Origin: Actinomycetota bacterium
GTDB taxonomy: Bacteria; Actinomycetota; Geothermincolia; Geothermincolales; RBG-13-55-18
Assembly: GCA_028697145.1 (NCBI GenBank)
Contig: JAQVFR010000036.1
Location: 1-34,671, forward strand
DNA length: 34,671 bases
Direction of reading: 5' to 3'
The translations under genes were made by a program, and so were the position numbers. A model generated the notes under the pieces. That model searched no databases and was not told the DNA's origin. It was given only the letters and a program-made list of their open reading frames with translations. This document shows, piece by piece, positions 19,655 through 34,271 of the stretch (its first letter is position 1; the number at the start of each line of letters is the position of its first letter).

Positions 19655-20875
19655 TTATTCGGTAAACTGGGTTATTAGTGAGAAAATCGGCATGTAAAGA
19701 GCGATGACGATGGTCCCAACTACAACTCCAAGGCCCACGATCATGAGGGGTTCAAGGAGAGAGGTCAGGGCCTCTACCGTCGCAGCGATCTCGGAATCGT
19801 AGAAATCCGAGACCTTGTTCAACATGGTGTCCAGCGCCCCCGTCTCCTCGCCGATGGCCAGCATCTGCGTCACCATGGGAGGGAAGAGGGGGCTCTGCCC
19901 CAGGGGCCTGGCTATGGAATCGCCCTCTTTGACCCCGGCCCGCACGCTATCCACGGCGTCCGCCACCAGGACGTTGCCCACGGTATTGGAGGTTATCTCC
20001 AGGGCCTGCAGGATGGGAACGCCGCTCGCCACCAGGGTGCCCAGGGTGCGCGAGAAACGCGAGAGGGACATCTTGTGGAAAAGCGACCCGAACACCGGCA
20101 GCCTCAGCTTCAGCGCATCGAGCTTCCTGCGGCCGTTGGGCGTCTTCAGCCAGCGGCGCAGGAAAACGATGCCCACGATGAGCGCGATCACGAGGATCGC
20201 GCCCTTCCAGCTGACCAGGAAGTGGCTGACAGTGATGATGATCTTGGTCAGGAAGGGCAGGTTCGCGCCCATGTCGCTGAACATCCTCTCGAAGGTGGGC
20301 ACGACGAAAATGAGCATGACCACCAGCAGCAGAACCGAGATCCCCAGCATGGCTATGGGATAGGTCATGGCTGATTTGATGCGTCGCCGGATCTCGTCCT
20401 CGCTCTCCAGGGTGTTCGCCACGCGCAGCAGCACGTCATCGAGGACGCCGCCGATCTCGCCGGCCTTTACCATGCTCGAATACAGTTCCTTGAACGTATC
20501 CGGGTGCTTGGCGAGGGCTTCCGAGAGGGAGCGGCCCATCTCCACCTCGTGCTGCACGTCTGTAATGATCTCGGTGAGTGCCGGGCTCTCGGTCTGTTCG
20601 GCGAGGATGTTCAGGCATTTCACCAGGGGAAGTCCCGCGTTAATCATGGTCGCGAACTGGCGGGTGAAAACGGTTATGTCCTTCTGCTTCACCTTGGGTT
20701 TGAAGATGTGCAGCTCTTTCTTGGTAAGGGATGCCTTTTCCTCCTCGACCCCGATGATGAAATACCCCATCTCCCGCAGCCGCTGCGAGACCGAGGCTTC
20801 GTTCTCGGCCTCGAGTTTTCCGGAGATGATCTTCCCCTGCCGGTCCCTCACCCGGTAGGAATATGTCTGAGCCAC
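19655..20875 (-). CDS. pilC: Type IV pilus platform protein PilC (GspF family)
   Basis: The inner-membrane platform on which PilB and PilT act. The 406-residue product has two tandem GspF domains. The first starts near residue 70 (FTRQFATMINAGLPLVKCLN) with a transmembrane segment near 172-193, the second near 273 (FSRTLGTLVASGVPILQALE) with transmembrane helices near 220-240 and 375-400. Both GspF signatures are intact. The GTG at 20875 has AAGGAG eight bases upstream. A 263-base gap with possible RNA structure separates it from pilT. Confidence 0.95.
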   Translation of the reverse strand: MAQTYSYRVRDRQGKIISGKLEAENEASVSQRLREMGYFIIGVEEEKASLTKKELHIFKPKVKQKDITVFTRQFATMINAGLPLVKCLNILAEQTESPALTEIITDVQHEVEMGRSLSEALAKHPDTFKELYSSMVKAGEIGGVLDDVLLRVANTLESEDEIRRRIKSAMTYPIAMLGISVLLLVVMLIFVVPTFERMFSDMGANLPFLTKIIITVSHFLVSWKGAILVIALIVGIVFLRRWLKTPNGRRKLDALKLRLPVFGSLFHKMSLSRFSRTLGTLVASGVPILQALEITSNTVGNVLVADAVDSVRAGVKEGDSIARPLGQSPLFPPMVTQMLAIGEETGALDTMLNKVSDFYDSEIAATVEALTSLLEPLMIVGLGVVVGTIVIALYMPIFSLITQFTE

Positions 20876-21138: not shown

Positions 21139-22206
21139 TCAGCCGATGAGCCTCACCATCTCGTCGCGGTTGCTGCAGCGTCCCATGGCCACCTCGTGCG
21201 ATATCAAGCCGCGTTTGTACAGAGCGGCGATGGAATGGTCCATGGTCTGCATCTTGTACTGGCCGCCCGCCTGCATGGAGGAATAGATCTGATGCGCCTT
21301 CGCCTCTCGGATGAGGTTGCGTATGGCCGAGGTGGCCACCATGACCTCCACCGCCGGGATGCGGGCCTGTCCATCCTTGGTGGGAAGAAGCTGCTGGGTG
21401 ACGATGGCCTGGATGGTGCTGGCCAGCTGCATGCGGACCTGCTGCTGCTGGTAGGTGGGGAAGACGTCGATGATGCGGTCGACGGTCTGCGGCGCGTCCT
21501 GGGTATGCAGGGTCGCGAAGACGAGGTGGCCGGTCTCCGCCGCCGTAAGCGCCGTGGAGATGGTCTCCAGGTCTCGCATCTCGCCCACCAGGATCACATC
21601 GGGGTCCTGGCGCAGCACGTACTTGAGCGCGTTGGAGAAGGAGTGGGTGTCTCCTCCGACCTCCCTCTGGTTGACGATGCATTTCTTGTGCACGTGCAGG
21701 AATTCGATGGGATCCTCCACGGTGATGATATGCAGGTTGCGCGTCTCGTTGATGATATTGATCATGGCCGCGAGCGACGTCGACTTCCCCTGGCCGGTCG
21801 GCCCGGTCACGAGGATAAAGCCGCGCGGCAGCATGCAGAATTCCTGGATCACCTGGGGGAGGTGCAGTTCCTCCAGGGTCTTGATGCGGTACGGGATGAT
21901 GCGGAAAGCCGCACCGATGCTGTTCCTCTGAAAGTACGCGTTCACCCTGAAACGCGCGCTCCCCGGCACCGAGTAGGAGAGGTCGTACTCCAGGTTGCTC
22001 TCCAACTGTTCCCTCTGCCTCGCGGTGAGTATGCTGTAGACCATGTCCCTGGTGTCGTTGGAGGTCAGGCGGGAATACTCCTCCAGGCGCACCAGGACCC
22101 CGTTGATGCGCATGACCGGAGGGGCGCCCACCGTGAGGTGAAGATCGGAAGCCCCCCTCACCAGGACTTCCTCCAGCAACTCGTTGATATCAAACTTTCC
22201 AGCCAA
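21139..22206 (-). CDS. pilT: Type IV pilus retraction ATPase PilT
   Basis: A hexameric ATPase that depolymerises pili and powers twitching. The 355-residue product has an N-terminal PAS-like domain (ASDLHLTVGAPPVMRINGVL), Walker A GPTGQGKS (135-142), the Asp box TVEDPIEF, Walker B DVILVGEMRD, the His box GHLVFATLHT and the PilT-specific AIRNLIREAKAHQI. The Walker A has Gln where PilB has Ser, a variant common in PilT. I chose the TTG at 22206 because GGAGG is seven bases upstream and the product then starts MAGKFDINELLEE; an ATG at 22233 has a poorly spaced site. It follows pilB after 187 bases with nothing else recognised. Confidence 0.94.
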   Translation of the reverse strand: MAGKFDINELLEEVLVRGASDLHLTVGAPPVMRINGVLVRLEEYSRLTSNDTRDMVYSILTARQREQLESNLEYDLSYSVPGSARFRVNAYFQRNSIGAAFRIIPYRIKTLEELHLPQVIQEFCMLPRGFILVTGPTGQGKSTSLAAMINIINETRNLHIITVEDPIEFLHVHKKCIVNQREVGGDTHSFSNALKYVLRQDPDVILVGEMRDLETISTALTAAETGHLVFATLHTQDAPQTVDRIIDVFPTYQQQQVRMQLASTIQAIVTQQLLPTKDGQARIPAVEVMVATSAIRNLIREAKAHQIYSSMQAGGQYKMQTMDHSIAALYKRGLISHEVAMGRCSNRDEMVRLIG

Positions 22207-22393
22207 GGCCGTTCCTCCTCTCGGAACCTTCATGGCCTTCCGGCCATACCGTCAACGCGCCTGTCGGGCCTATCCTCCTGCCCCATCACAGGGACGCGTC
22301 TTCCACCGTCAATCCTGATGTCCCCCGCCCGTATTTCTCTCCCTATATCGGTTTTTAGCGGGATTTCTTTCACCCCGAAGTCGGTGAGCGGCC

Positions 22394-24058
22394 CTACATG
22401 ATGACCCTCAGCACCTCCTCTATGGAGGTCATGCCGCTCCTGACCTTGATGAAGCCCTCCTCCCGCATGGTTCTCATCCCCTCCGCCCTCGCCGCCGCGG
22501 CGATCTCTACATGGGGGGCGTTCCTGGCCACCAGGTGTTCGATGGCCTCAGATACCTCCAACACCTCGTAGATGCCGATCCTGCCCTTGAACCCCGTGTT
22601 GTTGCACGCGGGACAGCCCCTGGGGTGGTAAAGGACCTTCCCGCCGTTATCCCAGTTGAAACCGACCCCTTCCAGGAACTCCGGGTCGGGCTCATAAGCC
22701 TCCTTGCAGCGGTCGCAGAGCCTGCGGGCAAGCCTCTGCGAGCTCACGCAGTCCACCGCTGATGCGATGAGGAAAGGCTCGATCCCCATCTCCAGCAGGC
22801 GCGTGAGGGCGCTGGGGGCATCGTTGGTGTGCAGCGTGGACAGCACGAGGTGGCCGGTCAAGGCCGATTCGATCGCGATCTGCGCGGACTCCGGGTCGCG
22901 GATCTCTCCGATCATCACGATGTCGGGGTCGCACCTGAGGATGGAGCGCAGCGCGGCGCTGAAGGTCAGTCCCGCCTTGTAATGCACCTGCACCTGGTTG
23001 ATGAGGGGAAGGCGGTATTCCACGGGATCTTCCACGGTGATGATATTATGCTTGATATTGTTGAGCACGTTGAGGGTGGCATAAAGGGTCGTGGTCTTGC
23101 CGCTGCCGGTAGGCCCGGTGACCATGATCGTGCCGTAGGGCTTGCGGAAGCTGCGCGAGTAAACTTCCAGGATATCCTCGCTGAACCCCAGCTCCTCCAG
23201 GCTCATGAGGGAAGCGCTCTTATCGAGTATGCGCAACACCACCTTCTCTCCGTGGATGGTGGGCAGGGAAGCCACGCGCAAGTCGATGGGCTTGCCCCTG
23301 ATATCCACCGATGCCCTGCCGTCCTGGGGGACGCGCTTTTCGGCGATGTTCATGTCCGCCATGACCTTGATCCTGGCCACGACGCCGGGGTGGAGCTGCT
23401 TCGGGTTCCTCCTGATCTCGTGCAGCACACCGTCGATGCGGAATCGCACTCGCACGTCGTTCTCCATGGGCTCGATGTGCACGTCGCTGGCGCGGTCGTT
23501 TACGGCCTCGGAGATGAGCAGGTTCACATACTTGACGATGGGCGCGTTATCCATCTCCGCCTCATCGGAGGCATCCTCGCCGTCCATCTTGAGATCATCG
23601 CTGGAGAAGTCGATCTCCGTGTCAGACTGGCAGTAGCGGCTGATGGCCGCCATGATATCCTCTTTCGTGGCCACCATCGGCTCGATCTGCATACCGGTCA
23701 TGATGCGGATGTCGTCCAGGGCAAAGACGTTGGCGGGATCCGCCATGGCCACGATGAGGCGATCTCCGTTGAAACCTACGGGTATCAGGCTGTAGCGCCT
23801 GGCGATCTCCGCATCCACCAGGGAGCAGGCGCTTATGTCTACGTCGAAATTTGACAGATCAGCGTATTTCAGCCCTATCTGCCGGGCAAGGATAGAGGTA
23901 AGGGCTCCCTCGCTGACCATTTTCATGTCGATGAGCACCCTGCCCAGCGACTCTCCCGTCTCGCCCTGACGCTCCAGCGCCTGCTGCAGCTGCTCCTCGG
24001 TGATGATGCGGTTTCTGATGAGCAGCTGTCCCAGTTTCTCTTTCTTCGGCTTTTGCAT
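22394..24058 (-). CDS. pilB: Type IV pilus extension ATPase PilB with MshEN-type N-terminal domain
   Basis: Powers pilus polymerisation. The 554-residue product contains Walker A GPTGSGKTT (315-323), the Asp box TVEDPVEY, Walker B DIVMIGEIRD, the His box GHLVLSTLHT and a four-cysteine zinc site (CDRC at 448-451 and CPAC at 482-485). The N-terminus has two 24-residue motifs of the L-G-x-x-L...L...L-x-x-Q type, at 8-31 and 37-60, separated by exactly five residues, as in the cyclic-di-GMP-binding MshEN domain; nucleotide binding is therefore likely but untested. The ATG at 24058 is preceded by GGGG/GAGG; a GTG at 24079 would add seven residues. It begins 21 bases after aroE. Confidence 0.95.
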   Translation of the reverse strand: MQKPKKEKLGQLLIRNRIITEEQLQQALERQGETGESLGRVLIDMKMVSEGALTSILARQIGLKYADLSNFDVDISACSLVDAEIARRYSLIPVGFNGDRLIVAMADPANVFALDDIRIMTGMQIEPMVATKEDIMAAISRYCQSDTEIDFSSDDLKMDGEDASDEAEMDNAPIVKYVNLLISEAVNDRASDVHIEPMENDVRVRFRIDGVLHEIRRNPKQLHPGVVARIKVMADMNIAEKRVPQDGRASVDIRGKPIDLRVASLPTIHGEKVVLRILDKSASLMSLEELGFSEDILEVYSRSFRKPYGTIMVTGPTGSGKTTTLYATLNVLNNIKHNIITVEDPVEYRLPLINQVQVHYKAGLTFSAALRSILRCDPDIVMIGEIRDPESAQIAIESALTGHLVLSTLHTNDAPSALTRLLEMGIEPFLIASAVDCVSSQRLARRLCDRCKEAYEPDPEFLEGVGFNWDNGGKVLYHPRGCPACNNTGFKGRIGIYEVLEVSEAIEHLVARNAPHVEIAAAARAEGMRTMREEGFIKVRSGMTSIEEVLRVIM

Positions 24059-24079
24059 TACCTCGCACCCCTGTTCCAC

Positions 24080-24928
24080 CTATGCGGACAAAGCGGCGTG
24101 ATAGGCTCTCCTCATCTCCTGCAGCGGTGCCGGCTTCCCGGTCCACAGCCTGAAGGAGGCGGCTGCCTGGTGAACAAGCATGCCCTCCCCGTCGGCCGTG
24201 CTGGCTTCCCGGGCGGATGCCTCCGCCAGAAAGACTGTATCACCCTTCGCGTAATTGAGGTCGATGGCCCATTTCCCGGCAGCAAAACCCCCGTAATCGA
24301 GGGGGAGTTGTCCTGCCTCCGCCAGGGGAGTGCAGTTCACCGCCACGTCGCACTCCCGCAATACCTGTGAGCCCTCCAGGTCGAACGCTCTTACTGATAT
24401 CTCGGTTGCGGGGGTTGCCCTCTTTAACAAGCCCGCCAATTCCGCGGCCCTCTCCCTCGACCGGTTCATGACGAATATGCGGGCAGCGCCCTCCCCAGCC
24501 AGAGCGAGGGCGACCGCGCGCGCCGCGCCACCCGCCCCTATCAGCAGGACCGAAGACCCCGCCACCGGCACACCGGCCTCTCCCAGAAACGACCTGAATC
24601 CCTCGACGTCGGTATTGTGGCCGATCATGGCGCCGCCTGCGCAAACCACTGTATTCACCGCTCCGAGGATTCCGCTCGGTTCGATCAGCTCGTCCACGAA
24701 GCTCACCGCCTCTACCTTATGGGGTATGGTGACGTTGAAGCCCCTGAATCCCGCCGCGCAAACTCCGCGCAATGCCGTTCCCAGCTCTTGTCTTGATACC
24801 CGAAGCGGCACGTAAACCCAGTTCATCCTGAGAGTGGAAAAAGCGGCGTTATGGAGCGCCGGCGAGAGGGTGTATGCGATATCGTACCCGACGATGCCCA
24901 CCAGCTGTGTCTCACCATTAATATCCAT
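24080..24928 (-). CDS. aroE: Shikimate dehydrogenase (NADP-dependent)
   Basis: Reduces 3-dehydroshikimate to shikimate. The 282-residue product has the substrate motif TLSPALHN (Thr where Ser is usual), the catalytic lysine in FNVTIPHK, GHNTDVEGF, the Rossmann loop GAGGAARAV, the NADP-selecting NRSRERA and the C-terminal GMLVHQAAASFRLWTG. The ATG at 24928 has GGAGG six bases upstream; the frame is open to 25012 but the extension does not fit the family. It lies between the small GTPase and pilB in the same direction, so it may share their transcript. The other aro genes of the window are 9 kb away, beyond the rest of the pilus genes. Confidence 0.95.
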   Translation of the reverse strand: MDINGETQLVGIVGYDIAYTLSPALHNAAFSTLRMNWVYVPLRVSRQELGTALRGVCAAGFRGFNVTIPHKVEAVSFVDELIEPSGILGAVNTVVCAGGAMIGHNTDVEGFRSFLGEAGVPVAGSSVLLIGAGGAARAVALALAGEGAARIFVMNRSRERAAELAGLLKRATPATEISVRAFDLEGSQVLRECDVAVNCTPLAEAGQLPLDYGGFAAGKWAIDLNYAKGDTVFLAEASAREASTADGEGMLVHQAAASFRLWTGKPAPLQEMRRAYHAALSA

Positions 24929-25029
24929 GCCGAGCCTCCGGGTCCACACACCCCCCATCGAACGAGCATGTCCGTTCACAGGCCCTTCGAGAAACCTGCG
25001 CCGAACCGGCATGCTTTGTGGGGAGGGAT

Positions 25030-25575
25030 TTACTTGTCGAGGGTTTTGAGGATATCGTACAGCAGGCCTAGGAGCACTTTCTTCACGTCCTCCTTCTCCA
25101 TGGCGTTGCAGGGTATTATCTGTGTATCGCCGTCGATGTTGAGTTCCTGCCGAATCCTCTCGATGGCTTGCGCGTCGCCTTCATCGCCAATCCTGGTCGC
25201 GCCGACAACGAACGGCGCATCGGACAGGGTGGCAAAGAACTCAAGGATGCGCTTGCCCTCCGCGTATGTATCTGGTCGGCTTGCGTCGAGCATCAGGATA
25301 TACCCCAGCATACCCTCGGACAATATCTGCCACATGAAATCGAAGCGCTCCTGGCCCGGCGTTCCAAACAAATACAGCACGATATCCTTGGAGATGGTGA
25401 TCCTTCCGAAGTCCATCGCGACGGTGGTCTCGGCTTTTACCCTGCGCGTGGAGTCCGAAATAGCCCTTTCCGTCGAGACGATGGAAATCTCGCTTATACT
25501 CTTGATGAAAGTCGTCTTTCCCGCGCTAAAGGGCCCCGTGACTACGATTTTGAAGGATCGCAACTGGCCATCCAC
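25030..25575 (-). CDS. Small Ras-like GTPase of the MglA/CvnD type
   Basis: A 181-residue single-domain GTPase. G1 is GPFSAGKT (14-21), the switch I threonines are at 50-51 (TTVAMDFG), and G3 reads LFGTPGQERF (69-78), with Gly in place of the usual first Asp. G4 is not a normal NKxD; the matching region reads GATRIGD (125-131). These departures occur in the prokaryotic family that pairs with roadblock proteins, such as the conservon GTPases of Streptomyces. The GTG at 25575 lies three bases after the DUF4388 gene. In this context it is probably switched by one or more of the three roadblock proteins upstream. Confidence 0.88.
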   Translation of the reverse strand: MDGQLRSFKIVVTGPFSAGKTTFIKSISEISIVSTERAISDSTRRVKAETTVAMDFGRITISKDIVLYLFGTPGQERFDFMWQILSEGMLGYILMLDASRPDTYAEGKRILEFFATLSDAPFVVGATRIGDEGDAQAIERIRQELNIDGDTQIIPCNAMEKEDVKKVLLGLLYDILKTLDK

Positions 25576-25578
25576 CCC

Positions 25579-28500
25579 TTACAGTCTCTTAATGCCGTCG
25601 ATGATACGCATGATGATGCTCTTCGTTACGGCCTTATCCCGCTTTACCTTGGGAACCGGCTTACCCCTATCTAATTCCTCCACTTCCTCTTCTTCTCCTT
25701 TCGGTTTAACCGGTATCTTTATCTTCTTTGTCGGCTGCGGCGTGGATACTCCCGTAAGCTCGGCCAATTCTCTTTCTAAGGAGTAGGCTCCCACGTCGAA
25801 ATCCTGCGTCTCTTCCAGGGCGTCCTCTACCCTGTCCGCCGCCTCGTAAGCGGGCGCGGAGGCAACTGGAGCATCGAACTGCGAGGGCTCGAAAGCTGCT
25901 GGCGGCCGCTGCTCCGGGGCCACCGTCGGCACGGTTGCGGCGGGTTGCTCGGGCACGGCGGGCTCCACGTATTCGGGAGCGGGTGCCTGGGCCGCCTCCG
26001 GCACGGCGAACTCCGCTTCGGGCGCTGCGGGCTCCGGCATGGCTTGCTCCGGGGCCACCGTCGGCACGGTTGCGGCGGGTTGCTCGGGCACGGCGGGCTC
26101 CACGTATTCGGGAGCGGGTGCTTGGGCCGCCTCCGGCACGGCCTCGGGGCTTTCCGCCAGCCTCTCGAGCAATTCGATGGGCTCGGGCGATTCCCGGGCG
26201 GGCTCCGGCACGGCGAACTCCGCTTCGGGCGCTGCCGCCTCCGGCATGGCCTCGGGGCTTTTCGCCAGCCTCTCGAGCAATTCGATGGGCTCGGGCGATT
26301 CCCGGGCGGGCTCCGGCACGGCGAACTCCGCTTCGGGCGCTGCGGGCTCCGGCATGGCCTCGGGGCTTTCCGCCAGCATCTCAATGATATCGAACGTGCT
26401 GCGCGATTCCTCGAGCGCCTCCGGCACCTGGGCATCTATCGTCTCGCCGGCCGGTCCTTCCATGGTCTCCGGCTCCAGCTGCGCGGTTCCGCCATCGGAT
26501 GGAACCTCCGTCTCCGCCCCGAAGACCTTCTCCAGCTCCTCCAGCGATGCCGGCATATCGTCTTGCGCGGGCAACGCCTCCCCTGCGAGCTCTTCCTCCT
26601 CATAAGCTTCAAGGATCTCTTTTTCCAGCCCGGATATCTCATCCGCAAGGTCCTGCGGCAGGGCTTCGTCGGCAAGGATCTCCTCCTCCAGCGCCGCAAT
26701 CTCCTCCTCGAGCTCCGCGATATCCAGGGCGGGAACACCCTGTTCTGCTTCCAGTATCTCCTTTTCGAGATCCTCTATCTCGTCGCTGAAAAGATCCCCT
26801 CTGCGCTCTCCAATAGCATTCTCGGACTTAGGCACCACCTCGCCGATATCGAAGAAGGTCTCCGCAGGTTCTCCCGGCTGCAGCCCCGGCTCCTCGGGCA
26901 ACGGCAATGCGTCCTCCACAAGCAGGGCTTTCTCGGATGACGGCAAATCCTCCAGCATTACGCTTTCCAGGATATCCGCGGCGGATGCATCGGTGTAAAA
27001 GTCCACGCCGACGGCGTAAGCCGGTTCCTCTTTCCTCGGCTCCGTCTCCTCAGCGTGCGATATTCCACCCGCAGCAAGGTATTCCTCCCCCGCTCTTTCG
27101 GGAATATCCTCGAGCATCACGCTCTCCAGGATGGCAGCGGCCGAGGGGTCGTCGGGCCCCCTGCCGTCATCACCGGCTAAACCGGGCTCTTCCTCGAGGG
27201 ACGTACGGGAGACCTGTGCGCCCCCTACACTGCCATCGCTCCCCTCGAGCTGTTCGAATATCTCGTCCAGGCTCGCCCCCATCGCAGGCTCCGGGTATGC
27301 CGACGCCACCGCTCTTCCCTCCGTCTCGGCCTCAACGCCGCCTCCAGGGGGGTCGCCCGGCATTGTCTCTTCGTCGATTCCGGTCCCATCTGCGGTGGCG
27401 CCCGCCACATGCCTTTCTTCAATCTTCGATTCCGTTTCCGTTGCCGCCAGGTGGCTCTTCCACTCCTCGGGTATCTCCTCCGGTTCCCGCTCCGCTCTCT
27501 CCTTTTCGGCCAGGCTCTCCATCTTGCCGTATTTCTTCTCGAGATATGCCCGCTTCGCCGCCCTTGCCTCGACGCTCTCCTTCGTCATCTTCTCGAAGCG
27601 GTAATGAGGGGCGCGCTCCGGAGGGAGCGCCTCCTTTTCTCCCTCGGCCTCGTCCAGGCCCAGACCCTCCGGAAGAAGTGAACTTATCTTCTTTTTGAGC
27701 TCCTCCAGCTCGGCCTCTTTGCTGTCTATTTCCAGGACCTGCTCGGCCTCCATGGACTCCTCGATGGCGGCTTCTTTCATCTCGAGGATGTGCTCCTCCT
27801 CTTTTTTCTTCTCTTCCTCGAGGACTTTCTGCGCACCCAGCGGCAGCTCCGCTTCCGGCAATATTTCCTTTTGCGATATCTCCCGCTCCCCTTCGGCCGC
27901 CGGTGCCGCGACCTCTTGTTCCTCCGCACCGTCTGCCGCTTCCTCCGTTACCTCGACCTCCAGCGCGGCGGTAACTACCTCCTCGACAAGTATGTCTCCC
28001 TCCGAATCATCGCCTATCTCGATCTCTACGGCCTCCGCCTCGCCTGAATCGGCCGCTGCCTCCACCGCCTCCACCGAACTTGCGGAAACCATCGCCACCT
28101 GCTCGATATCTTCCGTAACTTCCAGCGCTTCATCGCTGATTACGGGCTCCTCCTCCACTGCGAGTCCCGTTTCCACCAACCCGGTCACCGGCACCGGCGC
28201 CGCCGCCTCAACCTCTTTCTCCTCTTCGCCACCGGTCTCGGGGGGAGCCGTCTCGATCTCTCCTTGCGCATCCGCCTCCAGGCGTTCGAACACCTCGCCC
28301 AGGGCGTCCGCGACCTCCCATGGTTCCTCCTCGTAGGCGGCCTGGGCGGCCTCTTTCGCGGCAGGCTCCACCGTTTTCGGCTCCGTGATAATCTCTTCCG
28401 CCGGCTCTTCCGCCTCGGATGCGAAGTCGGGGATCTCCACGAAAGCTGGCGCTGCTTCGCCTACCTCCTCCTCGACTTTCTCCAGTTCCTCCGCCAGCCG

Positions 28501-29250
28501 CTCCAGCCTCAGATCCGCTTCCTGCTCCTCCGAGGCCGGGGTGATGTTCTCCAACAGCCCGGAACCGATAAGTCCGTAGAGGATCTTGCAGGTGTGCAGG
28601 GTGCTCATTCCCGTGAGCTCTACGATCTGCCTGACCGTCTTTTCGCCGTCGATATGTGTGAGGACCATCCATTCCTCGGGCGTCAGGCTTATCTGCGCGG
28701 CCTCTCTGCCCTGCATGGAGGTCATCTTGAAGATCACGTTCAGGTTGGGTATCTTCTTCTCGATGCGGTTCCACTCGTCCAGCCGCCGCGATCCCTCCAT
28801 GATCAGCTCCTCGGTGCTGATGGAGAGGCCGATGTCCTCCTCCGGAAAAACGACCCCCGGCTGGAAATCGAAATCGCCGTCCGTCCACCGCAGCATCTCG
28901 AAGACGGCGTCCTGTATCTGTTCTTCTACGAACACCTCCAACTGTTCTTTGGTAATATATCCCATGCGGATGAGGAGCTGCCCCAGCCGCTGGCCCCGGG
29001 CCGTGGTCTTCTGCAGTTCCAGCGCCTCGTCTACCTGTGCCTTCGAGACGATTCCAGCGTTAAGGAGCTTGAGGCCGAGCGATTGCCGTTTCCAGTTGGT
29101 GGTGGCGAAAAATACCTCGCCGTTACGAAAGCAGATATAACCCCTGGCTTGCCCGCGGGTAAGGTTGAGCGTCCCGTTCTTCTTGCCGAAATTCAGCAAC
29201 TGGAACAGGTCGGGAATGCTGAAATCCTTCAGGCTTCCTTTCAGGGCCAT
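25579..29250 (-). CDS. Giant DUF4388 protein with MshEN-like motifs and a long acidic low-complexity region
   Basis: A 1223-residue protein. Residues 1-50 match the DUF4388 start ([20 protein letters not shown]). Two 24-residue MshEN-like motifs follow at 57-80 and 88-111 with a seven-residue spacer, then a helix-rich part ending in a winged-helix-like segment near 190-235 ([20 protein letters not shown]). From about 245 to 1170 it is a Glu/Ala/Pro-rich, probably disordered region. It holds repeated short motifs: [14 protein letters not shown] near 700 and [14 protein letters not shown] near 760, several LEEEI/LEKEIL heptads near 800-890, and Pro/Glu/Ala repeats at 960-1115. The C-terminus is basic ([11 protein letters not shown], then a Lys/Arg-rich end). 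It looks like a scaffold linking roadblock/GTPase signalling to other partners; no enzyme domain is seen. Confidence 0.85.
25911..26356. repeat. Coding tandem and interspersed repeats in the DUF4388 gene
   Basis: Two families are visible. About 95 bases starting at 25911 recur at 26046 (offset 135 bases, 45 codons) with at most a few differences. About 106 bases starting at 26143 recur at 26251 (offset 108 bases, 36 codons). Both offsets keep the frame. The encoded repeats are Pro/Glu/Ala-rich. The near-identity at DNA level points to recent duplication or ongoing slippage. Confidence 0.9.
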
Positions 29251-29423
29251 ATGATCACATCACCCGCCGCGAGCGCATCCGCCGGGAGGAAGCACGCGCC
29301 GCGCTTCGTCCCGCATTTGCCCTCGTATGCTATGCTTCCGTTCCGTTCCCCCACGCCACGCTCCTTCAACGGTCCTGGCCGCGCCCGGGCCGTTTGGCCA
29401 GGTGCAAACGCGCCATGCCCCTT

Positions 29424-29822
29424 TCAATCATATTCGATGCGGAATTCCACCTTAATGATCTCGGCGATCTTTTTTGCCGCGCCCTTGACGTCGTATAAGA
29501 CCAGTCCGAGCTTGCTCCCCTTGCGGACCAGCGCGGTCAGTACCGCGTCCTCCCCGGCGGCCATAAGAAAAACGTATCCGGAATTGCCCTCCACGAACAC
29601 CTGCGCCAACTCCCCTCTCCCCAACTCCTCTGATGTCCTCTCCCCCAGGCTGAGGAGGGCGGCAGACATGGCGCCAAGCCTGTCCTCCTCGAGGGTATTG
29701 GGCAGGACCGATGCCATTACCAGGCCGTCCATGCTGACGACAGCCGCGGCATCGACCTCGGCAGATCTCGAGACCAACTCGTTAAGGGCATTCCTCAGCC
29801 TGTCCTCCCTAGATTCCGCCAA
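29424..29822 (-). CDS. Roadblock/LC7 domain protein (first of three along the sequence)
   Basis: A 132-residue protein of the roadblock/LC7 fold, which includes MglB and other GTPase regulators. The core reads AAAVVSMDGLVMASVLP, a helix (LGAMSAALLSLGERTSEEL), strands AQVFVEGNSGYVFLMAA and AVLTALVRKGSKLGLVLYDV, and a final helix. It begins at a TTG (29822) with AGGAGG eight bases upstream. It follows another roadblock gene by 48 bases, and 173 bases without a recognised feature separate it from the DUF4388 gene. It is the longest of the three and ends in a short acidic strand. Confidence 0.85.
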   Translation of the reverse strand: MAESREDRLRNALNELVSRSAEVDAAAVVSMDGLVMASVLPNTLEEDRLGAMSAALLSLGERTSEELGRGELAQVFVEGNSGYVFLMAAGEDAVLTALVRKGSKLGLVLYDVKGAAKKIAEIIKVEFRIEYD

Positions 29823-29870
29823 GAAACCGACCTCCTATGTATTGTCCAGAAAAAACGTGTTCTCTCGCCC

Positions 29871-30245
29871 TCACTCGAAGAGCCTTGCCAATTCCTCCGC
29901 GGTGCGCTTCCCTTCCATAAAAACCACGCCCATCTTCGCTTCGGCTCTAACCAGCAGTGACAGCAGCGCATCGGGCCCGCAGTGAACGAGCAGGAGATAT
30001 CCCATGTCCCCTTTAATATACACCTGCTCGAGTTCCCCCCTCTTGAGGTCGCGGGCCGCCCTCTCGCCCATACCGAGTACGGAGGCAGACAGCGCTCCTA
30101 TCATCTCCTCATCCGCTTCGTCGGAGATATCCGAGGCCAGCGCCATGGCATCCGAGCTGATCAGAACCGCCGCCTCGATCTCCGGCAGGTTGGAGCGCAA
30201 GTCCATGAGGATGGAGTTCATTCTCTCGATTCTGTCCGAAGTCAA
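29871..30245 (-). CDS. Roadblock/LC7 domain protein (middle)
   Basis: A 124-residue roadblock/LC7 protein with IEAAVLISSDAMALASDI (the usual Asp-Gly turn replaced by Asp-Ala), the helix IGALSASVLGMGERAARDL, strands LEQVYIKGDMGYLLLVHC and ALLSLLVRAEAKMGVVFM, and the closing helix RTAEELARLFE. It starts at a TTG (30245) with AGGAGG five bases upstream. It resembles the neighbour at 29424-29822 more than the third, which suggests a local duplication. Homo- or heterodimers with its neighbours are likely for this fold. Confidence 0.85.
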   Translation of the reverse strand: MTSDRIERMNSILMDLRSNLPEIEAAVLISSDAMALASDISDEADEEMIGALSASVLGMGERAARDLKRGELEQVYIKGDMGYLLLVHCGPDALLSLLVRAEAKMGVVFMEGKRTAEELARLFE

Positions 30246-30310
30246 TCTTACCTCCTGAAAGAACGACAGGTCACCGCCTCCCTATAGGGGGAGACGCCAT
30301 TTCCGCCCCA

Positions 30311-30664
30311 TTACAGGGACGTCTCGATCGCGGGAAGATACTTGCGGATGTCATATCTCGCCTTTCCCAGGTTCGCCCCCGAGGGCAGGATAGACACGAG
30401 AATCGCATCCGTGCCAACGGCGCTCATGAGGATGGCGCCCTTCTCAAACTCGAACATGGCCTGGGCCATCGGCCCCTGGGCCAGCTCCAGCCCTATCACC
30501 TCGGCGGCGCCCAGGGAACTGGGCGCTATCGCGCCGACGGCCTCCAGCTGGCTTGCGTCTTCACCCGCCGTCTCGATTATGAAGCCGTCTCTCCCTACCA
30601 CCAGCGCTGCACGCACGGTTCCGGTGGCAACCAATTCCTCCAGGACTTTTCTCAGATCGGGCAA
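30311..30664 (-). CDS. Roadblock/LC7 domain protein (promoter-proximal)
   Basis: A 117-residue roadblock/LC7 protein: RAALVVGRDGFIIETAG (with the Asp-Gly turn), the central helix around ASQLEAVGAIAPSSLGAAE, AMFEFEKGAILMSAVG and AILVSILPSGANLGKARYDI. It starts at a TTG (30664) with AGGAGG nine bases upstream and is the first gene after the 30810-30838 promoter. It is the most divergent of the three, with a shorter C-terminus, and may have a distinct role such as dimer partner or GTPase-facing subunit. Confidence 0.85.
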   Translation of the reverse strand: MPDLRKVLEELVATGTVRAALVVGRDGFIIETAGEDASQLEAVGAIAPSSLGAAEVIGLELAQGPMAQAMFEFEKGAILMSAVGTDAILVSILPSGANLGKARYDIRKYLPAIETSL

Positions 30665-30954: not shown

Positions 30955-31245
30955 TCAGAACATGGCGGCGCATTTTAGCTGCGCCCGGGCGTCCGCGGGC
31001 CCGTAACGCTCTGTTCCATCCCCCGCCTCCACCGCGATCGCATCCGCGCGGCATGCCACCTCGCAGCTCAGACACCTGATGCAGCTCTCCTCGCATGCTA
31101 CACGGGGATAGCCGTCGTCCCCACGAACGAACACCGGGAACTCCAGGCCGTCTACCTGCGGACAGATGTCAACGCATTCGAAACAACCCACGCATCTGTC
31201 GCGGTCTATCCTTATCAGGGGCTCAACCTTCTCCACGTACTCCAA
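30955..31245 (-). CDS. 2x[4Fe-4S] ferredoxin-type protein
   Basis: A 96-residue electron carrier with two cluster motifs: CVGCFECVDICP near residues 18-29 and CIRCLSCEVACRADAI near 55-70. Both C-x2-C-x2-C-x3-C sets are complete. I placed the start at a TTG (31245) because GGGAGGAG is correctly spaced; a GTG at 31254 is too close to the same site. It lies 34 bases after the hydrogenase large subunit, so it probably carries electrons to or from that complex. Confidence 0.85.
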   Translation of the reverse strand: MEYVEKVEPLIRIDRDRCVGCFECVDICPQVDGLEFPVFVRGDDGYPRVACEESCIRCLSCEVACRADAIAVEAGDGTERYGPADARAQLKCAAMF

Positions 31246-31279
31246 CCCTTTCACTCCTCCCGCTCAGAACAGCGACATA

Positions 31280-32599
31280 TCAATGCACGCCACAGGGGAT
31301 ACAGGGGGCGAAAGCACGTATGGCCGTCTCCAGGAGGACCAGGGCTCTTTCGCCCGTATCCGCGCTACCCAGGACGGTTCGCGCGCTTTCCAGCACCGCC
31401 CTTTCCAGGGACTTGAGGTTGAACTGCAGCGGCGTGGTGATCGATAACCGCTTCACCAGGCCGTCCTCGTCCAGGACCAGACCGTAGAGCAGCGTCCCTT
31501 CCGGACCCTCAACCGCTCCCTCCCCGCTACCTCCGGAAGGGTTCAGCGTCCGGCGCATCATCTCTCCGCCGGGCAGAGCGAGGAGTTCTACCATCCTCTC
31601 CCAGGCATGGATCATCTCCAGGATCCTGGCCGCGTGTCCTATCATGTTGCGGTGCAGTGGGAACCCCCAGTGGGCCTTGACCTCCTCCAGTTCCTCGTCG
31701 GCCAGAGCCGTACCGTAGCCTCCGTTAACGTTCAGACGCGCCAGCGGGCCGACCCTCACCTCGCCCACTCCGGACAGCTCCACACTCCTGATATGCGAAT
31801 GGGGCGAGTTGTCCTCCCGCAAACGCTCGGCGGCCTCTTCGAGGCCGAAGGCCTCCTTCGCCTCGCCTCCCGCATCGACGACCGCCAGGGCCGTTCCCGT
31901 GATCGCCATCCCGCCTTCCCCCCGGAGCGACAGGGATGGCGCCTCATCCGTGCCCAGTGCGTTCACGGCCTCCTCGTTCCTGCGCAGCAAGAGCTTGACG
32001 AGACGCCCAGTCTCGATAAGAAACGGCCTGGCTTCGTTGAGCCGGTCGATCAGCGCCCTTCTCGTATCCGCGGATATGTCCCTGACCGCTCCGCCCGGCA
32101 GGAAATTCACGGGGTGCACGGCCCTGCCCCCGGCTTCTTTCAACACGCTGGTCCCAAGGGACTTGAGCTCCATGAGCCTCTTGACCGTCTCCTCATCGAC
32201 GCGATGGATGCTGATAATGTTACGCAGACCCGGATCGGATGAAGGGAAGAGAAGATCGGGAAGGCTGTGCACGGTAAGGGATACCGCGTGCCGCTCGAAC
32301 AGCTGACCCCAAAGGGCCAGTTCGCGGAGGCGAAGGGCTTCCGGCGGCACCTCCACCCCCAGCGCATTCTCCACCGCGGTGGCGGCGGCGAGTTGGTGAA
32401 AGAGAGAATCGCAGCCGCAGATGCGGGATACGATGGGGCAGAGCCCGTCGATGTGCGATCCTCTTGCTATCTGATCGAAGCCTCGGTACCCGAAAGCCTG
32501 GAAACGCGCGTCCCGCGGGTTTTCGGCCTCGTCGAGGACAATCTTCACGCTGGCGTTCCCCATGATCCGGGTCAGAGGATCTATCAGGATCTCCGGCAT
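31280..32599 (-). CDS. Divergent NiFe hydrogenase large subunit-like protein (MvhA type)
   Basis: A 439-residue protein whose overall layout fits group 3 (F420-non-reducing, Mvh-like) large subunits: IDPLTRIMGNASVKI, RGFDQIARG, SRICGCDSLFHQLAAATAVENALGV, HSLPDLLFP, GGYGTAL and a C-terminal FAPCIPCGVH. Key places differ from the usual motifs: TRIEGH is TRIMGN, RGFE is RGFD (39-42), the first cysteine pair is C-G-C (61, 63) instead of C-x-x-C, and DPCxxC is APCIPC (433, 436). The protein ends exactly at the His where maturation peptidases normally cut, so no cleavable tail exists. It may be an active but unusual hydrogenase or a related redox or sensory protein. The ATG at 32599 has AAGGTG upstream. 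Confidence 0.85.
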   Translation of the reverse strand: MPEILIDPLTRIMGNASVKIVLDEAENPRDARFQAFGYRGFDQIARGSHIDGLCPIVSRICGCDSLFHQLAAATAVENALGVEVPPEALRLRELALWGQLFERHAVSLTVHSLPDLLFPSSDPGLRNIISIHRVDEETVKRLMELKSLGTSVLKEAGGRAVHPVNFLPGGAVRDISADTRRALIDRLNEARPFLIETGRLVKLLLRRNEEAVNALGTDEAPSLSLRGEGGMAITGTALAVVDAGGEAKEAFGLEEAAERLREDNSPHSHIRSVELSGVGEVRVGPLARLNVNGGYGTALADEELEEVKAHWGFPLHRNMIGHAARILEMIHAWERMVELLALPGGEMMRRTLNPSGGSGEGAVEGPEGTLLYGLVLDEDGLVKRLSITTPLQFNLKSLERAVLESARTVLGSADTGERALVLLETAIRAFAPCIPCGVH

Positions 32600-32641: not shown

Positions 32642-33544
32642 CTATTCCCTCTCTCCCAGACGATAGAGGAAGGGCGCGCTGCCCCCGGGCCTGCGACGCC
32701 TCAACAACGCCTCCGCCAGGCAGTACCTGAAAAAGGAATGTGCGGGGTCCTTTATCGCGTCCTGCACCTCGTGTGGTTTTTTGCCCGTCGCCCTCGTCAG
32801 GCGCCGCAAGGTCTCCGCCCGGGGATCAAGCGCCGGGTGCTTCAGCACCGCGTCGCTGGGGCCTCTGCATCCGTCGCATGGTATGCCCGATTCGCTCACG
32901 CATACCGCCCCGCATCCATCCCTGGTGAGGGGCCCCATGCACAGGAATCCCTGCTCCAGCAGGCACTTCTTCTCCGCAGCCTCGGCATCGGTGGTTCTGT
33001 GCGGGCCCGCCTGGGGGAGGGACACTCCGGAAACCGCGCACTCCGAGCAAACACTCGATCCCTCCCGTGATGGCAACGTGCCCGACAACGAGAATTCCAG
33101 AAAAGACCTCATCAGCTCCACCGGTGGCGGACATCCCGGCAGGTAGGCGTCTACCCTCACGTACGAATCAACGGGGAGCAGGCGGCGCACTCCCTGCGGC
33201 TCTCCTTCGAAGGACGCATCGGCCCCGAAACGGCGCCGCATCATCCTTTCCTCCGAGAACATATCCGCCAGGCCCGGCACCCCCCCATAACATGCGCAGG
33301 TCCCCAGGGCGACCAGGAATTCGGATCTCTCGCGCGCCTGCTTGGCCTTACGGTAATCGTCTCCGTTGCGGATGACGCCCTCGACGAGTACCATGTCGAC
33401 CTCCGGTATGCCCTTCCGGTCTACGACAAAGGGGGCGAAGGGCACGCTGTTCTCGCTGATCAGCGAGAAGAGATAATCCTCCATGCTGAGGAAAACCATC
33501 TGGCACCCGAGGCACGAGCCGAGGGACACCATTGCCAGCCGCAT
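32642..33544 (-). CDS. NiFe hydrogenase small subunit (MvhG-like)
   Basis: Electron-transfer subunit of 300 residues. The proximal cluster cysteines are C11 and C14 (GSCLGCQ), C83 (GTCACYGG) and C138 (LPGCPPP). A C-terminal ferredoxin-like part adds eight cysteines: C166, C169, C194, C202, C211, C215, C223 and C226, with the MvhG-like CLLEQGFLCMGPLTRDGCGA and IPCDGCRGP. That is enough for two more [4Fe-4S] clusters. No Tat signal is present, so it is cytoplasmic. The ATG at 33544 has GGAG six bases upstream and begins three bases after the preceding gene. Unlike the large subunit, its cluster ligands look complete. Confidence 0.9.
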   Translation of the reverse strand: MRLAMVSLGSCLGCQMVFLSMEDYLFSLISENSVPFAPFVVDRKGIPEVDMVLVEGVIRNGDDYRKAKQARERSEFLVALGTCACYGGVPGLADMFSEERMMRRRFGADASFEGEPQGVRRLLPVDSYVRVDAYLPGCPPPVELMRSFLEFSLSGTLPSREGSSVCSECAVSGVSLPQAGPHRTTDAEAAEKKCLLEQGFLCMGPLTRDGCGAVCVSESGIPCDGCRGPSDAVLKHPALDPRAETLRRLTRATGKKPHEVQDAIKDPAHSFFRYCLAEALLRRRRPGGSAPFLYRLGERE

Positions 33545-33547
33545 CTT

Positions 33548-34036
33548 CTACTCCAGGTTCGTTACAAGCATCACAAGGCAGGCTCCTGGACCCGTGTGCT
33601 CGGTATGGAGGTCTACCCTGCGTTCGAATATCTTCTCCAGCATGCCTGCCGCATAACCATGTACCGTCTGGCAGGCCACGCCGCCCATCCTGACCCCCGC
33701 CGCTAGACAGGCGTCACGCACCGGACATTCCTCGAAAAGGAGCCTGATGAACATCTCCTCGACCTCGTATACCCAGAAATCGTCGTCTTCCTTGTTTTTC
33801 CATAGAGTGACCTTCCACACATCCTCACTGCTCGGGAAGACCCACTTCAAGGCACGCTCGATATCGTCCGTGCTGTCATGGGCGGCTGCCTCCTTTAGCC
33901 CGAGGTCCTTCCCCGCGAAATACATCAGCTGGGGCGCGGACTTGCCGGTTACCTCCAGGCCCGCCTGATTCATGATACCCAGGGTCTCGGATATGGCGCG
34001 TATACGCTCCTCCAAGGCCCGTTCCTCATCCGTCAT
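33548..34036 (-). CDS. V4R-like cysteine-containing protein, first gene of the hydrogenase group
   Basis: A 162-residue protein of uncertain function. The C-terminal part (CPVRDACLAAGVRMGGVACQ, then HGYAAGMLEKIFERRVDLH and TGPGACLVMLV) resembles the V4R (4-vinyl reductase-like) small-molecule-binding domain, which also has a Cys...G-Y/F-x-x-G-x-x-E...C layout; this is pattern recognition only. Cysteines at 104, 110, 122 and 153 could bind metal. The N-terminus (ALEERIRAISETLGIMNQAG) is helical. I used the ATG at 34036 (GGAAGGG nine bases upstream); the frame is open to 34135. It lies three bases before the small subunit, so it is co-expressed and may act as sensor, chaperone or partner. Confidence 0.65.
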   Translation of the reverse strand: MTDEERALEERIRAISETLGIMNQAGLEVTGKSAPQLMYFAGKDLGLKEAAAHDSTDDIERALKWVFPSSEDVWKVTLWKNKEDDDFWVYEVEEMFIRLLFEECPVRDACLAAGVRMGGVACQTVHGYAAGMLEKIFERRVDLHTEHTGPGACLVMLVTNLE

Positions 34037-34271
34037 GCGTCGATACCCTTCCCGACCGATTTCGAGTCCGCAGCGCGCGAAAAGGCCTTTCAACCAGATC
34101 GTGCGGCCATGCGGTGGGCATTGTTTTGTGGGCATCCTCGTCTTCGGCCGCTCTCCGCAGCCCTCCTACAAGTGATACTTCGGCCTTTTCTCATTAAACA
34201 TGAACAGCAACCCATAGGCCATAGCCGTAGCCAGGGTCTTCCTTGATTTCATGTATTTCAGGGGGATTTCA

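Follow-up and report, generated by a model that had tools for sequence, protein, structure and literature searches.

What might a run of roadblock, scaffold and small GTPase genes control next to the pilus ATPase genes of an Actinomycetota genome? The window, which is the whole stretch of 34,671 nucleotides that was analysed, carries these genes in one co-directional run on the minus strand. Three roadblock/LC7 proteins with TTG starts come first: RB1 (117 aa, 30311..30664), RB2 (124 aa, 29871..30245), and RB3 (132 aa, 29424..29822), all called from open reading frames and Pfam Robl_LC7 matches (E 1.8e-12 to 2e-18). They are followed by a PATAN (DUF4388) scaffold of 1223 aa (25579..29250; PF14332, E 2.5e-37, 128 bits against a cut-off of 25), and by a Ras/MglA-type small GTPase of 181 aa with a GTG start (25030..25575), assigned by Pfam (Ras, E 3.8e-6; ATP_bind_1, E 2.7e-15), motifs and tree. 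The run continues with aroE for shikimate dehydrogenase (24080..25012; Pfam), pilB for the pilus extension ATPase (22394..24079), pilT for the retraction ATPase (21139..22233; TIGR01420, 482.7 bits), and pilC for the platform protein (19655..20875). T2SSE and T2SSF matches were obtained among the pil gene products, and PilB scored 664 bits with its model TIGR02538, just below the cut-off of 675.65. The scaffold stop and the GTPase start are separated by 3 nt, the GTPase and aroE by 17 nt, and aroE and pilB by 0 nt. PilM, PilO, and other pilus genes lie farther downstream of pilC, and the type IVa pilus set of PilB, PilT, PilC, PilM, and PilO is complete. The original prediction of three roadblocks, a 1223-residue DUF4388 protein and a GTPase leading through aroE into pilB-pilT-pilC was borne out by the reading frames and by Pfam. 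The arrangement is not a chance one, since its order recurs in relatives. Between positions 24000 and 31500, no RNA element was found at the gathering score. The sigma-70 scan gave 3 sites (2.0 expected), terminator-like sites numbered 14 (6.1 expected) and were mostly within genes, and the PHROGs search returned no match.

Conservation was analysed in 396 genomes of the phylum Actinomycetota, to which the window is assigned by named loci of identical gene order and by the GTPase tree. The GTPase, called at 177 bits or more, is present in 55 of them, and the next match has 162 bits. Of the 54 relatives carrying it, 50 have pilB on the same strand at a distance of at most 10 kb; in three of the other four, the contig ends there. 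The PATAN gene was flagged by script directly upstream of the GTPase in 42/54 relatives. Nine of the 12 unflagged loci lie on contigs that stop short of the PATAN head, and the remaining three comprise one PATAN-roadblock fusion and two PATAN frames that overlap the GTPase frame (stop-to-stop ORFs). In two relatives, pilB is preceded by a PATAN-like gene and no GTPase was found. The GTPase, one near-universal roadblock and the PATAN scaffold are, as judged from these sequences, kept beside pilB-pilT-pilC in most GTPase-carrying genomes of the phylum. Linkage to the pil genes, whose loss in relatives was to count against the original prediction, was therefore retained. Because the gene order is kept (50/54 relatives), the pilus-control reading is well supported, and the module very probably controls the type IVa pilus. 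PilM occurs in 215/396 genomes and 168 of these 215 have no GTPase (hand count), which indicates that pili can manage without it.

The module might also act elsewhere in the cell and stand beside the pil genes only by old linkage, as aroE may do. Further shikimate genes occur in the same run as aroE, with no evident link to pili, and aroE, a neighbour kept in relatives, is probably outside the module in function. The sequence stretches around 31 PATAN-GTPase loci of Chloroflexota, Aquificota, and Caldisericota contain pilB, pilT, or pilC in no case (0/31), so the module is not inherently pilus-specific. However, many families of the phylum retain the block order ahead of pilB, whether aroE falls within the block or precedes it, and binding of PATAN proteins to PilB is known in cyanobacteria from the available text of two studies (PMC7690835, PMC9090330). 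Such hitch-hiking is thus improbable. Alternatively, the pili that the module controls could serve DNA uptake or secretion-like functions, and not movement and polarity. Thermus uses the same PilB-PilT-PilC machine to take up DNA, according to the accessible part of PMC11731258, and nothing at the locus demonstrates twitching. The PilT-family ATPase fits retraction and movement, yet it is compatible with uptake as well; this alternative is rather unlikely.

The GTPase has a P-loop (GPFSAGKT) that fits GxxxxGK[ST]. Its G3 region (LFGTPGQERF) contains GTPGQ, and its G2 region (ETTVAMDFG) has a Thr where Group 1 has its Arg finger; G71, T72, and G74 are invariant across the alignment. In MglA Groups 2-5, GTPGQ in G3 and Thr instead of the Group 1 Arg finger have been described (PMC4316618, available portion), and by these motifs the GTPase is of the Groups 2-5 type. 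Group 1, the classical MglA, was rejected; the TVPGQ motif and the intrinsic Arg finger are absent. Group 5 was not assigned because the G4 motif [NT]KxD is missing, the corresponding residues being TRIG in the window and TRxD-like in many relatives. Alternatively, the locus might be a variant of the conservon, the actinobacterial G protein system, in which a histidine kinase would relay the signal to gene expression. The phylum is shared, and roadblock, GTPase, and the GTPGQ motif are all present. However, neither a histidine kinase nor a CvnC-like protein was matched by Pfam among the 30 window proteins scanned, and the GTPases of named Streptomyces and their kin fall into a separate clade (26 rows, support 100/100) whose branch is long (length 1.47). 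The conservon reading is largely refuted by the gene content and is very improbable. The tree is poorly resolved at depth within the phylum, so only the separation from the conservon-type clade was drawn from it.

The three roadblocks are the sole Robl_LC7 matches found in the 2.98-Mb genome. All three are present as predicted, but the triplet is a local lineage expansion in which a single copy, RB3, is near-universal; relatives outside the order mostly have one or two. RB3 lies two genes upstream of the GTPase, within the four-gene distance by which MglA-type GTPases and roadblocks are paired. The Asp-Gly pair of MglB-type proteins coupled to Groups 2-5 occurs in RB1 and RB3, and RB2 has Asp-Ala. 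RB1 matches the Thermus MglB model (NCBIfam NF052242) weakly, with 24.9 bits against a cut-off of 200. One genome carries a single ORF in which a roadblock is joined to PATAN.

The scaffold of the original prediction could be resolved into four parts. The PATAN/DUF4388 domain with a helical insertion (residues 4-161, 28768..29241) was delimited by PF14332 and AlphaFold2, which modelled residues 1-240 with a mean pLDDT of 90.9. A winged-helix part follows (residues 166-238, 28537..28755; VIA-align matches). By composition, residues 246-1160 (25771..28515) form an acidic low-complexity tether with internal repeats, 23% Glu and a net charge of -200, the length of which varies greatly among relatives. 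The last 15 residues (25582..25626) form a conserved amphipathic helix, according to alignment and HMM, which is common to Actinomycetota scaffolds and to the PATAN-GTPase pairs of Chloroflexota and Aquificota. A strict pattern for this helix was found in 9/22 complete class-range members, 19/26 other Actinomycetota, and 32/39 named loci, and in 8/8105 other ORFs. Some of the misses are broken assemblies or N runs, and some are a real variant (KGSVKKIIDDLKKM). An HMM of 29 non-actinobacterial PATAN C-termini, made after the strict pattern, was searched against 3924 actinobacterial ORF ends, 52 of them labelled PATAN ends. Ranks 1-29 are all scaffold C-termini, with modest E-values (0.0008 to 0.32) and with close relatives counted repeatedly; they include seven unlabelled 3' scaffold fragments and one roadblock fusion. 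The class variant ends reach only E of about 5.

The helical insertion carries two tandem 24-residue MshE-type motifs, located by profile, curated model and superposition: motif I (residues 57-80, 29011..29082) and motif II (residues 88-111, 28918..28989), with a spacer of 7 residues (5 expected). In the model of the head, they form a four-helix bundle. A profile of 27 PATAN heads matches MshE (5htl) with an E-value of 2.2e-10, and the match is confined to profile columns 51-119. The curated model NF053729 ('cyclic di-GMP-binding domain, MshE-related') gave 49.4 bits for the window scaffold (cut-off 38) and matched 27/27 window-type heads at E<=1e-9; among 34 more distant PATAN relatives, four of them actinobacterial, none was above threshold. 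Key motif residues are present at 18/22 positions, compared with a maximum of 12 in 300 shuffles. Superposition of the PATAN model on c-di-GMP-bound MshE covers 60 residues at 1.7 A, with 43% identity and a middling Z of 6.5 (VIA). Foldseek gave nothing at E<=0.001, the N-terminus of Xanthomonas PilB being rank 12 (E 0.97), so the match rests on the profile search, NF053729, and the VIA superposition.

Motif II opens with Arg, one of the residues expected at the first position of both motifs (R, K, or L), but motif I opens with Ser; therefore, only homology to the MshEN-type motif is claimed, and c-di-GMP binding is predicted. The bundle may instead be a structural relative that packs on the MshE-type bundle of PilB as a protein contact, with no c-di-GMP bound. 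Across most class members, the first residue of motif I is Ser, Pro, Ala, or Thr. Many PATAN proteins retain the fold but have an eroded motif, erosion is also seen in several pilus-linked Actinomycetota, and the adjoining PilB has the same kind of bundle. However, nearly all class members keep the Gln that closes each motif and the Gly at the third place, which are ligand contacts in MshE (available text of PMC5013675 and PMC11731258), and the curated NF053729 threshold was passed. The genome has six GGDEF matches, two MshEN matches (both pilB-type), and no PilZ match, and hence few other known c-di-GMP receptors. A bundle for protein contact only is accordingly doubtful, and binding of c-di-GMP by the PATAN head seems reasonably probable from the sequence. 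GGDEF genes next to PATAN-GTPase pairs were also considered as a sign of c-di-GMP coupling. This idea was rejected after a phmmer search with one GGDEF query, which gave 2/31 loci outside the phylum, 2/37 control GTPase loci without PATAN, and 0/48 actinobacterial loci.

The best reading of the locus is a GTPase- and c-di-GMP-gated regulator of PilB, with predicted c-di-GMP binding and PilB contact. By analogy with MglB on MglA, the roadblocks would set the nucleotide state of the GTPase, which would work through the scaffold; contact between GTPase and scaffold is likely. The C-terminal helix on its long tether would probably be a docking or membrane-anchoring element. The PATAN head may meet PilB, the proposed target, as Synechocystis PATAN proteins do, and this contact is slightly favoured. 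The bundle within the head would bind c-di-GMP, and PilB might be engaged only if the GTPase state and the c-di-GMP level agree. The tether could let a single anchored scaffold extend to PilB at the base of the pilus or collect it there. Taken as a whole, control of the pilus motor through the scaffold has a probability of roughly 0.6; spatial (polar) control is more tentative. More speculative still is a tethered coincidence switch, in which the head would read c-di-GMP and grip PilB, and the helix, up to roughly 1200 residues away, would read the GTP state of the GTPase or the membrane; pilus extension would then be permitted only at sites where the two signals coincide. In a form lacking the c-di-GMP motif, the head-tether-helix plan would provide GTPases of this type with a general PATAN effector in several phyla.

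If this is true, Ras-like control of type IV pili would be hard-wired in the Actinomycetota, in which small GTPases are known mainly from conservons, and c-di-GMP would reach the pilus motor through a second receptor besides PilB itself. For the PATAN domain, about whose biochemistry little is known, this would supply a GTPase partner, a ligand that can be tested, and a defined docking motif at the C-terminus, all open to testing in the Chloroflexota and Aquificota relatives as well. The retention of this arrangement in much of the phylum suggests a mode of pilus control that has not been described.

The original prediction that such a module had not been described holds in part: the proximity of PATAN genes to genes for MglB or for MglA of Groups 1 and 5 had already been published (PMC4316618, which cites Makarova 2006), but the available text of that paper does not mention pilus linkage, the c-di-GMP motif, or the C-terminal helix, and no paper was found in the literature searched for an actinobacterial PATAN-GTPase-roadblock-pilB module. 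New in anatomy, at the level of sequence, are the PATAN-embedded MshE-type motif, the conserved C-terminal helix behind a variable tether, and the roadblock-PATAN fusion. The MglA-MglB system of Myxococcus xanthus and Thermus likewise combines a small GTPase and a roadblock with an output on the extension ATPase, through SgmX in Myxococcus, with FrzS and SopA also acting on PilB (PMC11580455, accessible part). However, the GTPase here belongs to the GTPGQ type and lacks the Group 1 Arg finger, a PATAN scaffold would take the place of the TPR protein SgmX as effector, and the genes lie inside the pil locus. The PATAN-CheY regulators of Synechocystis, of which PixE binds PilB1, also direct a PATAN domain to the pilus motor (PMC7690835, PMC9090330, as far as their available text goes), whereas no receiver domain was found here by Pfam, and the MshE-type insertion, acidic tether, C-terminal helix, and GTPase partner are present instead. 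Conservons (CvnA-D) have the phylum, roadblock, and GTPase in common with this locus (PMC13343842, available part); however, no CvnA or CvnC was seen here and the GTPase clade is separate. The MshEN domains of MshE, PilB, and PilF share the four-helix bundle with two 24-residue motifs (PMC5013675, PMC11731258, accessible text). In contrast, the scaffold has its bundle, with the longer spacer and the initial Ser of motif I, inserted in the PATAN domain of a non-ATPase, with no match to the MshEN C-terminal subdomain.

The original prediction had placed three roadblock proteins, a DUF4388 scaffold and a small GTPase (25030-30664, minus strand) in one run leading through aroE into pilus ATPase genes, and all of these genes were found there on a single strand. 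In transcription order, a NiFe-hydrogenase-like set with a ferredoxin is followed, after a gap of ~290 bp, by the roadblock genes RB1, RB2 and RB3, the 1223-aa DUF4388 (PATAN) protein, the GTPase, aroE, pilB, pilT and pilC. Further 3' of pilC lie pilM, pilN (identified by position alone), pilO and shikimate genes. The successive genes from scaffold through GTPase and aroE to pilB are spaced by ≤17 nt. Apart from RB1, RB2 and RB3, no Robl_LC7 protein was found in the genome.

The four ORFs 5' of the roadblocks (31280-32599, minus strand, with 30955-31254, 32642-33544 and 33548-34135) encode hydrogenase-like large and small subunits, the ferredoxin and a 195-aa protein with no Pfam or NCBIfam match. 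This set is kept ahead of the roadblocks in the class. The models nearest to the subunits are VhuA and VhuG, with scores far under the cut-offs. The L1 motif of the large subunit is RICGCDSLFH, in which Asp stands where the second Cys is normally found. The same Asp is present in most relatives in which the motif was found, so the metal site may be altered.

A GTPase profile built from 17 aligned rows was searched over 396 Actinomycetota genomes and matched 102 at E≤1e-20; 55 of these (counted by hand) reached at least 177 bits, the next match scoring 162 bits. The loci of all 54 relatives at or above 177 bits were examined. Linkage to pil genes, on which the prediction had been staked, was borne out, with pilB on the same strand within 10 kb of the GTPase in 50/54. 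At three loci without pilB (L059, L171, L184) the contig stops 1, 210 and 2 bases past the GTPase; the fourth, L182, is a true exception and resembles a second, separate copy in L172. The block usually includes aroE, which lies ahead of the roadblock or, as in the window, separates the GTPase from pilB. Six Actinomycetota loci (L153, L154, L155, L156, L158, L163) have an extra pilB-like gene between aroE and roadblock. PilM is present in 215/396 genomes and in 47 of the 55 GTPase genomes (hand count); pili can therefore do without the module, which is optional. Two loci (L064, L065) carry aroE, a PATAN-like gene and then pilB-pilT-pilC, with no GTPase found, a possible loss of the switch.

Among the best 80 matches in named genomes, a scan that may leave out records close to the window's genome, Coriobacteriia and other Actinomycetota MAGs have the GTPase beside pilB (L067, L086, L093). 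In the GTPase tree, L067 was nested inside genomes of the phylum (support 100/98). None of 31 Chloroflexota, Aquificota and Caldisericota loci with PATAN and GTPase had pilB, pilT or pilC in the flanks examined, some of them short; in one Aquificota locus, the opposite strand carries a pilM match. Thus, the PATAN-GTPase pair is widespread, and its tie to pil genes is seen, among the loci examined, in Actinomycetota only.

The three roadblocks of the prediction are all present in the window, but only RB3 belongs, with PATAN and GTPase, to the near-universal set; the other two are extras. All three occur in families f1 and f3, RB3 is joined by an RB2-like copy in several further families of the class, and the remainder have RB3 only. 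In the window, RB2 and RB1 share 37% and 32% identity with RB3, respectively. One relative (G248, L160) has a single 696-aa open frame containing a roadblock (residues 34-161), a PATAN head (residues 187-415) and the C-terminal helix. This fusion fits physical association of roadblock and PATAN; a stop lost through sequencing error is also possible.

The PATAN head is homologous to MshE. An AlphaFold2 model of scaffold residues 1-240 (35-row alignment, mean pLDDT 90.9) showed an insertion formed by helices 57-64, 70-82, 89-95 and 101-120; a helical insertion of PATAN was reportedly noted by Makarova in 2006. A PDB search with a profile of 27 heads, 26 from the class and L052 from another, matched MshE (5htl, E 2.2e-10), PilB and PilF, solely at columns 51-119. 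VIA superposition of model residues 51-114 on 5htl (MshE with c-di-GMP) gave Z 6.5 and 1.7 Å over 60 residues at 43% identity. The MshE-related c-di-GMP motif NF053729 (NCBIfam) matched the window head at 49.4 bits (cut-off 38) and 27/27 rows at E≤1e-9; in a second, 35-row alignment, which takes in four other Actinomycetota, two with pilB in view (L086, L093), it matched the window only. By strict count, the window's two tandem motifs retain 18/22 key residues, the maximum in 300 shuffles being 12. At least 15 are retained in many, not all, other Actinomycetota. Departures from the MshE motif are Ser first in motif I, a spacer of 7 residues, and Val or Tyr at some hydrophobic positions. From sequence and model, we infer that the PATAN insertion is the MshE bundle, an identity not stated in the passages seen of papers that name both MshEN and PATAN (for PMC7690835, those on PATAN). 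The winged helix that follows (28537-28755, residues 166-238) superposed best on a GATOR1-KICSTOR complex chain, presumably NPRL2 (Z 10.6, 2.2 Å over 70 residues, 13% identity); this modelled likeness may reflect a common fold only.

The tether downstream of the winged helix has ~915 residues, 23% Glu, 9% Pro, a net charge of -200 and internal repeats. In five assemblies (G001, G013, G016, G017, G025) the contig breaks inside the repetitive tether, leaving head and GTPase on different contigs. Scaffold lengths, measured as stop-to-stop ORFs, some broken, span ~320-1442 aa in Actinomycetota, against ~215-340 aa for the other phyla examined. Despite this range the final 15 residues are alike, the window's resembling QKSLVNRLINRIRSL (Anaerolineae) and TRGLLRRLVDKIRGI (Aquificota). 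An HMM of 29 non-actinobacterial PATAN ends placed scaffold ends at ranks 1-29 among 3924 actinobacterial ORF ends; rank 30 was unrelated. A PATAN protein with no GTPase at its locus (L055) is without the helix. Because the helix accompanies the GTPase even without pil genes, it probably serves for docking to the GTPase or the membrane.

Genome-wide there are 6 GGDEF and 2 MshEN matches, and no EAL or PilZ match at E≤0.001. The MshEN matches are the window's pilB and a second pilB-type ATPase on another contig (L187, G000:C35:10000-23755), which lies among metabolic genes, apart from other pilus genes. These counts make c-di-GMP signalling, with few known receptors, likely in this organism. 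A possible further input to the pili is a chemotaxis cluster elsewhere in the genome (L186, G000:C33), with an MCP, CheB and two CheW-domain proteins, of which one has 716 aa.

The likely pilus-control module is real and conserved, is made of parts of known kinds, and is probably undescribed. A polarity role, also raised in the prediction, is more conjectural than pilus control. The roadblocks would control the nucleotide state of the GTPase, the PATAN head would bind c-di-GMP, and the scaffold would contact PilB, which its tether might capture. In the mainly open-access literature searched, DUF4388 occurs only in work on nitrite reductase; the passages seen on PATAN, c-di-GMP and MglA hold nothing on a GTPase-roadblock-PATAN-pilB module; and those on roadblocks, type IV pili, Actinomycetota and MglA concern conservons only.

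The GTPase has a Ras/MglA fold (model pLDDT 88.7). Superposition on MglA (6h17) gave Z 19.4 and 2.8 Å over 168 residues, and Ras scored equally. G1, G2 and G3 agree with MglA Groups 2-5; G4 does not match [NT]KxD, so the GTPase is assigned to no particular group. In one relative (G015, L062:4396-4887) the GTPase is degenerate-looking, with GKAS in G1 and GTQGM in G3, and still lies between PATAN and aroE-pilB; its sequence is that of a possible pseudo-GTPase. The conservon-type GTPases, from the actinobacterial G protein system of roadblock, GTPase and kinase, form a clade of their own in the tree, apart from the window-type GTPase.
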